DNA of 64,000 nucleotides from Methanomicrobiales archaeon (GTDB taxonomy: Archaea > Halobacteriota > Methanomicrobia > Methanomicrobiales > Methanospirillaceae). The notes under the pieces were generated by a model. That model saw only the letters and a list, made by a program, of their open reading frames with translations, made no database searches and was not told where the DNA came from. The stretch covers positions 24,001 through 88,000 of the forward strand of contig JAAYWH010000096.1 in assembly GCA_012516785.1 (NCBI GenBank), in the 5' to 3' direction. Position 1 is the first letter of the stretch; each line of letters opens with the position of its first letter. Made by a program: the position numbers and the translations under genes. This document shows positions 23,223 through 34,888 of this stretch, one piece after another.

Positions 23223-24314
23223 TCACTTCAGAAAGTCGATTTCAAACTGCTTCTGAACTTTGGGGGTTATCTTCTCGTTTCTCCCATATATTTGTGGCGA
23301 CCGTACACCGGTTACTACCAGCATGGTCCTCATCTTGCTCTGCATAGAAGGATCAACCTGAGCCCCCCAGATAATACGCGCGCCCGGATCGATACGATCG
23401 TACACTTCCTGGATGACTCCTTCAGCCTCTGACATGGTCATATCAGGCCCTCCAATCACGTTCACGAGCGCAGCGGTGGCACCCGAGATATCGACATCAA
23501 GCAGGGGAGAGCGGATAGCCTTTTTCACCGAATCTGCTGCTTTATCTTCGCTGTCACTCTCCCCCACCCCGATCATGGCCACTCCGCCCCGTTCCATTAC
23601 AGTACGGACATCAGCAAAATCAAGGTTCACAAGCCCGGGCATGGTGATAAGTTCCGTGATCCCTTTCACTGCACGCATCAGGACTTCATCAGCAACTTTA
23701 AAAGCGGCATACAGGGGGAGGCGTGGGACGACTTCCAGAAGCCGGTCATTCGGCACGACGATAACGGTATCGGCCACATCGCGCAGTCGTTCGAGACCTG
23801 CTTCAGCATTTTCCATCCGGATCGCCCCCTCAGCCGTGAAAGGAAGGGTTACCACCGCAATGGTGAGCGCTCCCTCATCCCTTGCAGCCTTGGCAACGAT
23901 CGGGGCAGCGCCCGTTCCCGTGCCACCCCCAAGTCCTACCGTGATGAAGACCATGTCGCTGCCTGATACAATTTTCTTTATATCCTGTTCATTCTCGAGC
24001 GCTGCCTCCTCTCCGATCTGGGGGATGGATCCGGCACCGAGGCCCCTTGTTCGTTGCCTTCCAATGAGGATCCGGTGATCCGCAAGAGTCCTTGCAAGGT
24101 GCTGGGCATCGGTGTTCATTGCAATCAGGCTTGCCCCGTGGATACCCTCCTCCTTCATCCTTGTGATGGTATTTGACCCGCTCCCTCCGCAACCGATGAC
24201 CGTAATCTCGGTTTTGAGCTCTTTTAGAATCTGGTCAAGTTCCTCATTTTCAGAAAGGACTTTTGCAGGCTCAGTACTCACCTTGGTCAAAGCTTCTTCG
24301 ACGATCGATCTCAT
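23223..24314 (-). CDS. ftsZ: Cell division protein FtsZ
   Basis: Tubulin-like GTPase forming the division ring, 363 residues. Motifs: [14 protein letters not shown] (38-50), the tubulin signature [10 protein letters not shown] (129-138), and the T7 loop region [15 protein letters not shown] with its catalytic aspartate. I place the start at 24314, where ATGA overlaps the dtdA stop and the protein begins [15 protein letters not shown], as in FtsZ1-type archaeal homologues. An ATG 33 bp upstream is less likely. The C terminus ends [12 protein letters not shown]. First gene of the ftsZ-secE-spt5 series, translationally coupled to dtdA. Confidence 0.96.
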
Positions 24315-25630
24315 ATCAGTCTCTCCAATCCCGGGATTCGGATGCATGTTGTTGTCCTGGTTTGAACCATGTCCGATGTGATTTCACGGCCGTTGATTCG
24401 CACTGTTCTGCCATTCAGCAGTTCTCCGTACAAGGGGCCCTTTGGGATGCCCAGAATGCGCGCTTTTTCCGGGTCAAACCGTGTCCTGCTGATGATCAGC
24501 TGATCCCCGTCAACCGCCGTGGTTTCTCCACTACATATCAGTGTAACGCATAAGCTTATTAAATCATGTAGTATTCGCTCCGTGTTCTCCTCCGTTGTTA
24601 TGAATATCGGCAACACTGCAGATCCTTTTGACGAGAGGATGGCCACCGGAAGATTTCCTGCTCCCTCTTTCAGACCAGTGGGATTGATCCGGATTGTTTC
24701 ATAAAAAAGATCCTCCGGGAGTCTGATAACGTTCGGTATCCCGTCTTTTAAACGGGGAGAGATATCAATCCAGGCCCTGGGAGATATTTCCTCTGCCACT
24801 CGCTGGATCTCTTCCCAGGTAAACCAGGAAATATCTCGTAACTGGAGGAGCTGACGTTCTGAAAGGCGGGGAATACCAAGATTCGCTAGCACAATCGAGA
24901 GATGGTGCATTCCGGAAGGATCGACGGCTTTTTTATCGATATACACGGCTTTTGCCTGGCTTTTCTCTATGAGGCCAGCAATCATTGAAGGATCGAGGCA
25001 CTGAACATACCTGCTGTGAACGATATGGCCAAACGCCGTTCTGGACTGGAGGGCAATCTCTGTCTCTCTGCGTGCATAATGAGAGCCGCCAAGCCCTAAT
25101 ACGTTTATCGTCTCATGCGGATATGCCTCCAGGACACTCCGAGCTACCGCATACCCAGCCCTCATATCGGTCCATTCCTTCTCCGTACTCCCTATCTCAA
25201 CAAAGAACGAAGGTGTCGCCAGCTCAGTCGGGCCATGGTGGGTAACTTCGTATGTGATGTAGTATCCTTCAGGGGCATTTTTCTTCAGATTGCCGAGCAC
25301 GGCATGCATCCATTCAGGTGAAGCAACAGCAAGTGACTTGGCGAACCCGCCGAGGCCGGCATCCGCGATATTCCCGGTGACATGCACGGTCAGGACTGGG
25401 CGGGGATGTTCTGATGAATGCCTGGAGAGGAATATGATGAGATCACAATCAAGGTCCCTGTCAAGATGGTCAAGGCAGATCAGGCGGGAATTTGATTCAT
25501 GAATAATCAAATCATGCTCTTCTAGCGGATAAGGGCGCTTATGACCAGCCTCTGTCAGTAAATCTTCCAGGCAAGTCTGAATTGTCGTTCCCGCGGGATC
25601 GAGTCGGGAATGGACGAGCGCTATCTTCAG
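24311..25630 (-). CDS. dtdA: D-aminoacyl-tRNA deacylase, DTD2 type (probable CTG start)
   Basis: Removes D-amino acids mischarged on tRNA; archaeal/plant DTD2 (GEK1) family. Core motifs: [22 protein letters not shown] (residues about 130-152 read in parts), [25 protein letters not shown]. The first canonical start (25510) would drop 40 residues, but the frame continues upstream and encodes [17 protein letters not shown]. That is the expected family N terminus. It begins at a CTG (25630-25628) preceded by AAGGAGGTG about 4 nt away. With it the protein has 439 residues, normal for methanogen DTD2. No ATG, GTG or TTG lies in frame at that point. Confidence 0.92.
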
Positions 25631-25697
25631 AAGACACCTCCTTTACAAGAGACAGACATGGTAAACCCTATTTCTTTGGAAACATACTATTGTTACT

Positions 25698-25874
25698 ATG
25701 GACGAAGAGAAAATACGGTCAATTTTCGAGAGAGAGGGGATCGACAAGGAGATTAAATGCCCGGAAGCATTTGCTATTTCTGAAAAATACGGGGTCTCCA
25801 AGACCGACATTGCACGGTTCTGCAACACTCACGGAATAAAAATCCGGGCCTGCCAGCTGGGCTGCTTCAAATGA
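25698..25874 (+). CDS. Small HTH-like protein with C-terminal cysteine pair
   Basis: A 58-residue protein not recognised as a named family. It starts MDEEKIRSIFEREGIDKEI. The middle, CPEAFAISEKYGVSKTDIAR, reads like a helix-turn-helix. The end, GIKIRACQLGCFK, carries CxxxC next to the terminus, plus C21 and C43 further up. The TGA overlaps the moeA ATG (ATGA), so it is translationally coupled to molybdopterin synthesis. The start lies 67 bp from the divergent dtdA start. A DNA-binding or metal-sensing role for moeA control is conceivable but unproven. Confidence 0.7.
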   Translation: MDEEKIRSIFEREGIDKEIKCPEAFAISEKYGVSKTDIARFCNTHGIKIRACQLGCFK

Positions 25875-27076
25875 GCCTTTTTCTGACAACAGTACCAGTT
25901 GAAGAAGCAGTCAACACGGCACGGAGCCTCGCTATCCGCCTGTCCTCGGAAGAGATCCCGCTCAATGCTGCATTCGGCCGCGTTCTTTCTACCGATGTCA
26001 CGGCAGACATTGATATCCCAGGATTCACCCGATCATCGGTCGATGGATACGCTGTCAGATTCCGGGACACCACGGGGGCGTCGGAATCCCTGCCGGCCCT
26101 GTTCAATCTCTCCGGACGTGCTGCAATGGGAACGGAAGGAGTAAAAACACTCCCCTCTGACAGCGTTCTTTATGTCCCGACAGGTGGCCCGGTTCCCGTC
26201 GGGGGAGATGCGGTCGTAATGATTGAATATACCGAATCGATCGGGAACGATGTACTGGTAAAACGGCCGGCTGCACCGGGAGAAAATATCGTCCTTCAGG
26301 GAGAAGATTTCAAAGCAGGTGAGGTGATCCTTTCCCAGGGAACTGTGTTGTCATCCCGACAGATTGCAGCACTTGCTGCGGCCGGCAGGACAACGGTACC
26401 CGTTACAAGAAAACCAAAAGTAGGTGTGATATCAACCGGAAACGAACTGATCCCGGTGGGGGAGATTCCCACCGGGAGTCAGGTGCGGGATATCAACAGC
26501 TGGATGTGCGGGGCATTCCTCCAGTCAGCCGGATGTATCCCCGAATATTTTGGGATTGTAAAGGATGATCGTTCCCTGTTGCAAAAAATCCTCCAAAAGG
26601 CACTCTTGCTCTGTGATGCAGTCATCATCTCAGGAGGCAGCTCGAAGGATGACAGGGACCTCACTGCTGACCTGATCCGGGAATCAGGAGAGGTGCTTAT
26701 TCACGGGATAGCCATCGCTCCGGGCAAACCGACTATTATCGGGAGGTCAGGACAAAAACCCGTGATCGGTCTTCCCGGACATCCGGCATCTGCCTTTGTC
26801 GTTCTCCTGGTGATTGCCAGACCGCTTCTCATGGGAATGACCGGACAGGGTGACCAAGAGATGCTGACGAGGCGTCTGATGCTTGGGGAGAATATCCCTT
26901 CAACACGGGGAAGAGAGGATTATGTCAGGGTACGGATCCTGGAAGGGAAGGTATACCCGGAATTTGGAAAATCCGGCCTTGTCAATACCCTTATCAGGAG
27001 TGCCGGCCTTGTCAGGGTCCCCTCAGGGGTTGAAGGGTTGGAGGAAGGGGAATTGGTGGAGGTGATCCTCTGGTAA
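25871..27076 (+). CDS. moeA: Molybdopterin molybdenumtransferase MoeA (first copy)
   Basis: Inserts molybdate or tungstate into adenylylated molybdopterin, needed for formylmethanofuran and formate dehydrogenases. 401 residues, complete MoeA: N-terminal NAAFGRVLSTDVTADIDIPGF, SSVDGYAVRF, MoaB/Mog-like domain VGVISTGNELIPVGE, VIISGGSSKDDRD, and GKPTIIGRSGQKPVIGLPGHPAS, then the C-terminal beta domain. A second moeA-like gene follows with overlapping ends. Two paralogues are common in archaea and may separate Mo from W use (inference). Confidence 0.95.
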   Translation: MSLFLTTVPVEEAVNTARSLAIRLSSEEIPLNAAFGRVLSTDVTADIDIPGFTRSSVDGYAVRFRDTTGASESLPALFNLSGRAAMGTEGVKTLPSDSVLYVPTGGPVPVGGDAVVMIEYTESIGNDVLVKRPAAPGENIVLQGEDFKAGEVILSQGTVLSSRQIAALAAAGRTTVPVTRKPKVGVISTGNELIPVGEIPTGSQVRDINSWMCGAFLQSAGCIPEYFGIVKDDRSLLQKILQKALLLCDAVIISGGSSKDDRDLTADLIRESGEVLIHGIAIAPGKPTIIGRSGQKPVIGLPGHPASAFVVLLVIARPLLMGMTGQGDQEMLTRRLMLGENIPSTRGREDYVRVRILEGKVYPEFGKSGLVNTLIRSAGLVRVPSGVEGLEEGELVEVILW

Positions 27077-28929
27077 AGCGTTACCTGTCGGTCCTGCCGT
27101 TGCGGGAGGTGCTTGACATCATCTCACAAAAATTTCCTTCCCGTCGAATCTCTTTGGATATCCCTCTTGAAGAATCGGTAGGCAGGATCACTGCCCGCCC
27201 CCTTTTTGCATCCTACTCAGTTCCGGAAGCAGTCCTCGCTGCAATGGATGGTATTGCAGTCAGGAATGAAGATACGTGGGATGCGAGCGAGCAGCGTCCG
27301 GTTACCCTTACGAACTATGCAAGAGTAAACACCGGGAATGTGATCCCACCCATGTACGATGCGGTCGTCATGATAGAGGATGTTACCTTTGAAGGAGATA
27401 CTGCTGTAATCCGGAAAGCGGCTTCATCATGGCAGCATGTCCGTCCTGCCGGGGAGGATATTGCCGAATCGGAGATGATACTTCCCTCTTCACACCAGAT
27501 CCGGCCCCATGAGATTGGAGCTCTGGCAGCGTACGGGATATCTGAGGTTCCAGTCCTCACTGCCAGGGTGGGACTGATCCCTACGGGAAGTGAACTGGTG
27601 AGATCAGGGACAAGGCCTGCCCCGGGACAGGTCGTAGAGAGCAATACCGTGATGGCTGCGGCGTGGATCAGGTCTCTTGGTGCCGAATGCAGGCGATATC
27701 CGGTTACCCCTGATAAGCCTGAGATCATCTCTGAAAGGGTTTGCCATGCTGTTGCGGAAAATGATATTGTGATAATTTCAGCCGGGTCCTCAGCGGGAAC
27801 AAGGGATTATACCGCCGATGTTATTTCCAGTATGGGAGAGGTGCTTGTGCATGGGATTGCAATAAAACCCGGTAAACCCGCTATCATCGGAGCGATCGAT
27901 GGAAAACCGGTCATCGGGATGCCTGGCTATCCCCTCTCTGCCCTGACGGTAATCCGTGAAGTCATGATACCCCTCCTGCGACAGTACGGGCTCTCTTCGC
28001 CTTACACAGAAGATATTCAGGCCGACCTTGCTCTCAGTCTCCATTCAGATATCGGAACCTGTGAATATGTCCTGCTTGCAATAGGCCGGATTAAAGAACG
28101 CTGTATCGCAATCCCTCTCTCGCGAGGTTCAGGCGTCCAGATGAGCGGTGTGAGGGCACACGCATTTCTCCGCATTCCCCCCGATAAGGAAGGGTATGAG
28201 GCAGGAGAATCGGTAAAGGTCACCCTTATGATCCCGGAATCAGATGCGAACAAAACGCTTCTTATCTCCGGAAGCCATGATCCGGTGCTCGATCACCTGC
28301 TTGAGCTGACCCAACAGAAGGGCGTCATGCTGCACTCCTCCCATACCGGCAGTATGGGAGGAATCCTGGCGTTGAAGAGGGGCAGTTGCCATGCAGCGCC
28401 GATGCACCTTCTCCATTCTTCCGGTGAATACAACCTTCCTTATCTGAGGCAATACCTGCCTGGAGAAGACATCACCCTTGTCTGTGTTGCGGGGCGCGAA
28501 CAAGGAATCGCTTCCCGCGACGGGCTTACCCTCTCCGACCTCTCCACCCATACCTTTGTAAACCGGCAGAAAGGTTCAGGGACCCGTATGCTCCTTGATC
28601 ATGAACTGGGAAAACAGGGGATTGATCCCGGATCGATTCGGGGTTATGAACGAGAACTTACCACGCATATCGGGGTTGCCCTTGCGGTCAGGCAGGGGGA
28701 GGCTGACGCCGGCCTGTGCGTGTATTCTGCCGCCCGTGCTCTTGGCCTCTCCTTCGTTCCTATCGGAAAAGAGCGGTACGAGCTTGCTATCAGGACTGAC
28801 GATATGACTGATCCAAGGATAAGGACACTTCACGAGGCCATCAGGTCTGAACACTTCAGGGAGACACTCAGAGATCTTGGAGGGTACGATTCTTCCTGTA
28901 CAGGGCAGCTGCGGAGCACGCTTCCCTGA
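27070..28929 (+). CDS. moeA: MoeA fused to a periplasmic-binding-like (PBP) domain (probable CTG start)
   Basis: Second MoeA with a C-terminal extension, 619 residues. Residues 1-400 are MoeA (VPEAVLAAMDGIAVRNEDTW, LIPTGSELVRSGTRP, IISAGSSAGTRDYT, GKPVIGMPGYPLSA). Residues about 410-619 are a PBP-type ligand domain: TLLISGSHDPVLDHLLELTQ, VNRQKGSGTRMLLDHELGK, AVRQGEADAGLCVYSAA, as in ModE/LysR-like molybdate or oxyanion sensors. The family N terminus VKRYLSVLPLREVL lies upstream of the first canonical start (TTG 27100). CTG at 27070 with GGAGGTGAT directly before it fits best. Overlaps moeA by 7 bp. Confidence 0.92.
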   Translation: MVKRYLSVLPLREVLDIISQKFPSRRISLDIPLEESVGRITARPLFASYSVPEAVLAAMDGIAVRNEDTWDASEQRPVTLTNYARVNTGNVIPPMYDAVVMIEDVTFEGDTAVIRKAASSWQHVRPAGEDIAESEMILPSSHQIRPHEIGALAAYGISEVPVLTARVGLIPTGSELVRSGTRPAPGQVVESNTVMAAAWIRSLGAECRRYPVTPDKPEIISERVCHAVAENDIVIISAGSSAGTRDYTADVISSMGEVLVHGIAIKPGKPAIIGAIDGKPVIGMPGYPLSALTVIREVMIPLLRQYGLSSPYTEDIQADLALSLHSDIGTCEYVLLAIGRIKERCIAIPLSRGSGVQMSGVRAHAFLRIPPDKEGYEAGESVKVTLMIPESDANKTLLISGSHDPVLDHLLELTQQKGVMLHSSHTGSMGGILALKRGSCHAAPMHLLHSSGEYNLPYLRQYLPGEDITLVCVAGREQGIASRDGLTLSDLSTHTFVNRQKGSGTRMLLDHELGKQGIDPGSIRGYERELTTHIGVALAVRQGEADAGLCVYSAARALGLSFVPIGKERYELAIRTDDMTDPRIRTLHEAIRSEHFRETLRDLGGYDSSCTGQLRSTLP

Positions 28930-34162: not shown

Positions 34163-34888
34163 GGAGAAGACTGGCGGTTCAGAGATACACTTGACTGAGG
34201 TACGGATAGTTTTTACCATCTTTTTTTCGACCGGGTTGAACCCTTCAATCTCTTTTGCAGTCTTGTAAACGAAAATGCCACGCCGTTGCCATGCCGGGGT
34301 TTTCGCGAGATTGAGTCCCCGTGAGAACATCATCTCATGCAGTTCAGAAGAGGAAAGGCCCTTTAACAGCTGGGCGGCCTCATGGGAATCTTTTCCCTCT
34401 CCAACCAGGGTCTGATAACAGTATGAGTTGCTATGATTCCTCCATGCCTCTGCCTGCCGGTCGATGAGATACTGGAGAGCATAGTGGGGGCTTACCTGGA
34501 TGATCCGGGCATCAAACGCAACAGGAAACGGGGATGACATCTCGATTGTCAGGGCACTTGCAGCATAGGATGCGGTTATCGAGTCGATCTTCTCCACTCT
34601 GCCTGAGTAAGGAACATGTGAAAAATAGAGGTTTATCTCATCAGAAAAGGTAAAAGCGAGATCCGGGGAGAGTCCACTGGAGGTGATAAGCTGTTCGCTG
34701 ACACGGGCCATAGCCCGGGCAAATCGGTCGTCGAAAGGCCGCATCAGTCCCCACTCTTCTGCTACCCGGTGAAATCCCCGTCCGTCAAGACGCACAAATA
34801 CAGGAGGTACAGAAAGCAGGTTGCTGAATATTTCGCGCCTTTTCATATCATGAATCCCGTATTCGATAAAATTCTTCCATCCGGGCAC
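34115..34888 (-). CDS. tRNA-His guanylyltransferase-like protein (Thg1/TLP family)
   Basis: A 3'-5' nucleotide-adding polymerase family member, 257 residues. The palm-like catalytic start PPVFVRLDGRGFHRVAE carries the first metal aspartate. FTFSDEINLYF supplies the second acidic pair. LLKGLSSSELHEMMFSRGLN is a later family segment. The eukaryotic Thg1 HINNLYNT motif is here HSNSYCYQ, so this is more like the archaeal/bacterial TLPs that repair tRNA 5' ends. Either 34888 or ATG 34846 (MKRREIFSN) may be the start. Converges on ileS with a 48-bp overlap. Confidence 0.85.
   Translation of the reverse strand: MPGWKNFIEYGIHDMKRREIFSNLLSVPPVFVRLDGRGFHRVAEEWGLMRPFDDRFARAMARVSEQLITSSGLSPDLAFTFSDEINLYFSHVPYSGRVEKIDSITASYAASALTIEMSSPFPVAFDARIIQVSPHYALQYLIDRQAEAWRNHSNSYCYQTLVGEGKDSHEAAQLLKGLSSSELHEMMFSRGLNLAKTPAWQRRGIFVYKTAKEIEGFNPVEKKMVKTIRTSVKCISEPPVFSSPEGRLFLSGLIREL

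Follow-up and report, generated by a model that had tools for sequence, protein, structure and literature searches.

The dtdA gene of an uncultured Methanoregulaceae archaeon is very likely translated from a CTG start codon, and sequence comparisons within its genus indicate that ribosomes probably reach this codon from a short, near-leaderless upstream cistron by termination–reinitiation, dtdA being read as the second cistron. The gene lies in the window, the 64-kb stretch of DNA that we analysed, which comes from a fragmented genome assembly of 122 contigs. The genus is uncultured, and near relatives of the window are metagenome-assembled genomes (Methanoregula sp. RA.bin51, Euryarchaeota archaeon ADurb.BinA087 and Methanoregulaceae archaeon OWC_0046). 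Comparisons within the genus used the ten genomes whose contigs span the dtdA 5′ end, among which the window genome is denoted G000.

Counted from the CTG, dtdA (positions 24,311–25,630, minus strand) comprises 439 codons. Its product is a predicted DTD2-type D-aminoacyl-tRNA deacylase, an activity assigned through a match to the Pfam profile PF04414 (tRNA_deacylase; E = 4.7e-65, 219.4 bits against a curated cut-off of 33.6). The NCBIfam equivalog cut-offs are not reached by this protein (PRK14866.1-3, 538.9 against 612 bits; PRK03995.1-4, 212.7 against 272 bits); these models for DTD2 look narrow, and the product is better described as a member of the Pfam family than as the named equivalog. 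Orthologues were found in 100 of the 108 genomes of the family.

The minus strand reads, in order, a Shine–Dalgarno (SD) sequence AAAGGAGGTG (25,644–25,635), the tetranucleotide TCTT and the CTG (25,630–25,628), followed by the codons AAG ATA GCG CTC GTC CAT TCC CGA CTC GAT CCC GCG GGA. The SD is read directly from the sequence, unlike the anti-SD, because a search of the source assembly for the 3′ end of the 16S rRNA found none. Five codons before the CTG, a TAA (25,645–25,643, also present in G005 and G009) closes the dtdA frame on its 5′ side, with four sense codons between them, none of which is ATG, GTG or TTG. On the 3′ side, the first standard start is TTG 25,510, exactly 40 codons downstream. 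The sequence-only reading had described an SD four bases ahead of the CTG and a frame free of ATG, GTG and TTG for 40 codons, and on both counts it was right. Within this SD, the 8-nt AGGAGGTG occurs six times on both strands of the 64-kb window, and the dtdA copy is the only one that precedes, by no more than a few bases, an NTG that opens a long open reading frame (ORF) devoid of any other start. The pattern GGAGGTG-N3-5-CTG has 34 matches genome-wide versus 15 for a reversed-pattern control; across the 30 loci inspected, only the dtdA and moeA2 sites lie on the sense strand and open an ORF of more than 100 codons that has no upstream standard start. One more site of this pattern, at window position 34,679 on the plus strand, runs antisense to a gene. 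The remaining genus members also carry a G-rich, SD-like stretch 5′ of the dtdA start, weaker than the AAAGGAGGTG of G000.

Comparison of start codons across orthologues, which the sequence-only reading had proposed as a check, revealed an NTG at the aligned position in all ten genus genomes: CTG in six (G000, G005, G009, G011, G003 and G004), GTG in three (G007, G010 and G001), TTG in one (G008) and ATG in none. The proteins of the other CTG genomes share 95% (G005), 91% (G009), 75% (G011), 70% (G003) and 61% (G004) identity with that of the window. Because six genus members have CTG at the same position and none has ATG, we regard a base error as excluded and initiation at the CTG as very likely. 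Codon 1 is constant in the CTG clade, while neighbouring internal leucine codons differ: in G000, G005, G011, G003 and G004, respectively, position 5 reads CTC, CTC, TTC, CTT and CTC, and position 10 reads CTC, CTC, TTA, CTT and CTG. The 72 outgroup sequences, drawn from the family and order to which the genus belongs, carry ATG at this codon in 62 cases and TTG in 2, and most of the remaining 8 seem to begin a few codons away. In the outgroup genome G018 (locus L012, approximately 1,470–1,501), the dtdA frame holds no ATG, GTG, TTG or CTG after the stop that closes it upstream and before the conserved N terminus; the sequence here reads CAT ATC AGG AAT AAA AAG ATC..., and an ATC start or an assembly error is possible.

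The SD had been taken to lie in plain intergenic DNA, a reading that overlooked a short ORF upstream of dtdA. This leader ORF (25,627–25,659, minus strand) runs for 10 codons from ATG to TGA, contains the SD and overlaps the dtdA start codon as CTGA. In all ten genus genomes, an invariant TTTACCATG opens the ORF in frame, and its TGA overlaps the dtdA start as CTGA, GTGA or TTGA. The leader consists of 10 codons in G000, G005, G009, G011 and G004, 12 in G003, 15 in G007, G010 and G001, and 18 in G008; the distances from the leader ATG to the dtdA start (29, 35, 44 and 53 nt) are all 2 modulo 3. The spacer is the least conserved stretch of the region, and its length changes are all multiples of three. 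The leader frame is free of stops in all ten genomes, and some other frame holds a stop in eight of them. The frame is conserved and the peptide sequence is not, so it is the frame, in about 6–8 lineages and four length classes, that speaks for coding selection on the leader. As controls, we counted ATG-initiated ORFs of 3–20 codons ending at an overlapping start: the 52 outgroup dtdA genes with NTGA contained 8, and 122 gene–genome pairs from 50 other orthologue groups contained 28, 7 of the latter being the real dtdA/ftsZ overlap. Given this background of 15–23% per lineage and roughly six independent lineages, a leader ORF in ten of ten genomes would very rarely arise by chance, in a comparison whose lineages are related and that was devised after the pattern had been noticed. 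The proposal that an SD and a CTG start serve dtdA therefore stands in part: the orthologues strongly support the start, but SD plus CTG is probably not the entire mechanism, because the SD lies within the short leader ORF, which in all genus members ends in a stop overlapping the start.

A putative TATA box, AATAGTAT (25,684–25,691, minus strand), occupies positions −32 to −25 relative to the leader ATG and is conserved in the genus, where this spacing is constant; SD-less genes on these contigs are weakly enriched in A+T around −35 to −29. Together, these features suggest a dtdA transcript start at or near the leader ATG at 25,659, an arrangement that would place the dtdA start 29–53 nt from the transcript 5′ end. 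The adjoining block carries GTAAACCCTATTTC (25,661–25,674, plus strand), a putative BRE/TATA element containing a TTTAC motif. Many outgroups have a related TTTAC motif upstream of dtdA, but without the leader ATG. The motif probably belongs to the promoter of a divergent plus-strand gene, a 58-amino-acid ORF starting at 25,698, which would account for conservation of the block outside the genus; the leader ATG, which adjoins this block, could thus be incidental. The 58-amino-acid gene (25,698–25,874, MDEEKIRSIFEREG...) lies immediately 5′ of moeA1, is conserved across the genus as well as in G018 and G024, and encodes a protein with no Pfam match.

In the mechanism that we favour, the transcript would begin at or just 5′ of ATG 25,659, and a ribosome would translate the 10–18-codon leader and terminate at its TGA, which overlaps the dtdA start (NTGA, −4-nt spacing). 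The SD inside the leader would hold this ribosome for immediate reinitiation on the CTG, which the ordinary initiator Met-tRNA would read to yield the N terminus Met-Lys-Ile-Ala-Leu.... NTGA is the most common spacing of coupled or closely spaced genes, and ribosome delivery by short upstream ORFs has been proposed (PMC12548453). Termination–reinitiation coupling has experimental support in Haloferax (PMC6728339), and in E. coli a gene is translated more strongly when a synthetic short ORF carrying an internal ribosome-binding site precedes it (PMC13255528). The NTGA overlap that marks such coupling is present in all ten genus members, and an SD near the restart codon, common but not obligatory in coupled genes, is represented by AAAGGAGGTG in G000 and by weaker G-rich stretches elsewhere. 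Coupling of the RNA-unfolding type was considered and rejected: in the eight genomes folded, no shared hairpin hides the dtdA start, and the predicted structures are not clearly better than those of shuffled sequences in seven, G010 alone giving z = −4.1. The initiator tRNA is ordinary, with a CAU anticodon, an intact GGG/CCC anticodon stem and an A1-U72 pair. No initiator with a CAG anticodon or an altered stem was detected in the assembly, which is about 90% complete, and the sole CAG tRNA was called as tRNA-Leu. We thus rejected a special CUG-reading initiator, which the ordinary initiator also makes unnecessary. With the ribosome delivered to the site, the dtdA start codon would be under weaker selection, and in this genus ATG may have been replaced through drift by GTG, TTG or CTG; coupling by the leader would thus account for the ability of this codon to leave ATG.

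The principal alternative, which we consider unlikely, is plain SD-led initiation at the CTG, in which a strong SD offsets the weak codon and the upstream ATG frame is a coincidence. The 8-nt AGGAGGTG is well spaced in G000, where the SD alone might suffice, and the upstream block is conserved in outgroups that lack the ATG. The CTG-clade members G011 and G004, however, have weaker SDs (AAGGGGAT and GGAAGGAAGGAT), and all ten genomes, over four lengths, retain the leader frame with its stop overlap, against the control background given above. CTG also performs very poorly in de novo initiation: CUG reaches about 0.86% of AUG in E. coli and accounts for 0.024% of bacterial starts (PMC11497404), and only 2 AUG-to-CUG start switches were recorded in 61,358 (PMC5622118).

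Translation of dtdA from elsewhere, either from TTG 25,510 to give a truncated protein or from an in-frame site further upstream, is very improbable. An ORF finder does take TTG 25,510 first, and some orthologues are open upstream, but the TTG would discard 40 codons that have homologues in the orthologues, TAA blocks the upstream frame in G000, G005 and G009, and the others have no standard start within 32 codons. A different N terminus in orthologues, named earlier as grounds for abandoning the CTG, is excluded by the NTG that the genus orthologues carry at that exact position. Programmed frameshifting at the leader end, which would exploit the direct overlap of the two frames to fuse the leader to dtdA, is extremely improbable, as the codons before the overlap (GTC TTC, TCA CTC, GCC TTC, GCA CCC and GAC CGG) share no slippery site and outgroup proteins start at the same methionine position. 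A sequencing or assembly error at 25,630, the true base being A, G or T, has a negligible probability. The fragmentation of the source assembly might favour such an error, and a C/A error had been raised at the outset, but CTG recurs in six separate assemblies, the other five encoding proteins at 61–95% identity to that of the window, and three of the CTG genomes are different named public records.

A second conserved CTG start is found at moeA2 (27,070–28,929, plus strand; Pfam MoeA_N and PBP_like), where it overlaps the moeA1 stop as CTGGTAA (27,070–27,076). The start is CTG in the window and in seven other genus members (8 of 8 checked), GTG in G018 and ATG in G024. The first base of this CTG is the third, fourfold-degenerate base of a CTN leucine codon of moeA1, and the overlap thus does not force a C. 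The earlier view of this CTG as a product of overlapping coding needs therefore fails, all the more with GTG and ATG in the outgroups, and dtdA loses the rank of strongest of three cases that it had been given, the moeA2 CTG being equally good. Among the 79 orthologue groups on the contig, conserved CTG starts occur in dtdA and moeA2 only; a general excess of CTG starts was rejected, the other flagged CTG columns that we inspected being an antisense ORF or positions judged internal. The C-terminal PBP-like domain of moeA2 is LysR-substrate-like and fused to MoeA.

Downstream, the dtdA stop overlaps the ATG of ftsZ (23,223–24,314, minus strand; Pfam Tubulin/FtsZ) as ATGA (24,314–24,311) in 14 of the 15 genomes compared, whereas G008 has TAG. 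A mechanical ORF list sets the ftsZ start 11 codons further 5′, at ATG 24,347. The leader ORF, dtdA and ftsZ are thus joined by two 4-nt overlaps, NTGA at the dtdA start and ATGA at the ftsZ start, and the latter may likewise hand ribosomes from dtdA to ftsZ. In this arrangement the gene of a proofreading enzyme would come first in a coupled series that includes ftsZ.

For annotation, start finders restricted to ATG, GTG and TTG would shorten dtdA by 40 codons. A bolder proposal, which we put forward tentatively and hold to be possible rather than probable, is that, with this genus-wide leader cistron, it hardly matters which start codon follows: an archaeal ribosome that has just terminated on NTGA would reinitiate at CTG nearly as well as at ATG, buffering the decay of start codons, and the same logic would apply to the moeA2 CTG. 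If a coupled leader lets CTG persist for long, the locus offers a direct test of laxer start-codon inspection by reinitiating archaeal ribosomes, and leader coupling, if true, predicts where further hidden CTG starts and leader ORFs occur.

Comparison with known systems places dtdA among several precedents. The window protein belongs to the same family as other archaeal DTD2/dtdA products (PF04414) and shares their conserved N terminus at the start codon, but it is the long methanogen form, of 439 amino acids with an extra C-terminal region, and its start codon differs. As in NTGA termination–reinitiation coupling (PMC6728339 and PMC12548453), stop and start overlap at −4 nt and the SD lies within the upstream ORF; here, however, that ORF is a 10–18-codon leader without a conserved peptide, and the restart codon in the genus is CTG, GTG or TTG, never ATG. 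Synthetic bicistronic designs and 'nonsense' leader ORFs (PMC13255528 and PMC12548453) similarly have, directly 5′ of a gene, a short ORF that is dispensable and contains an SD by its stop, whereas the dtdA leader is natural, archaeal, probably near-leaderless and conserved in its genus. Finally, the dtdA CTG resembles the rare prokaryotic CTG/CUG starts (PMC11497404 and PMC5622118) in being presumably read as methionine by the ordinary initiator tRNA, but differs from them in its conservation over six species and in its tie to a coupled leader ORF.
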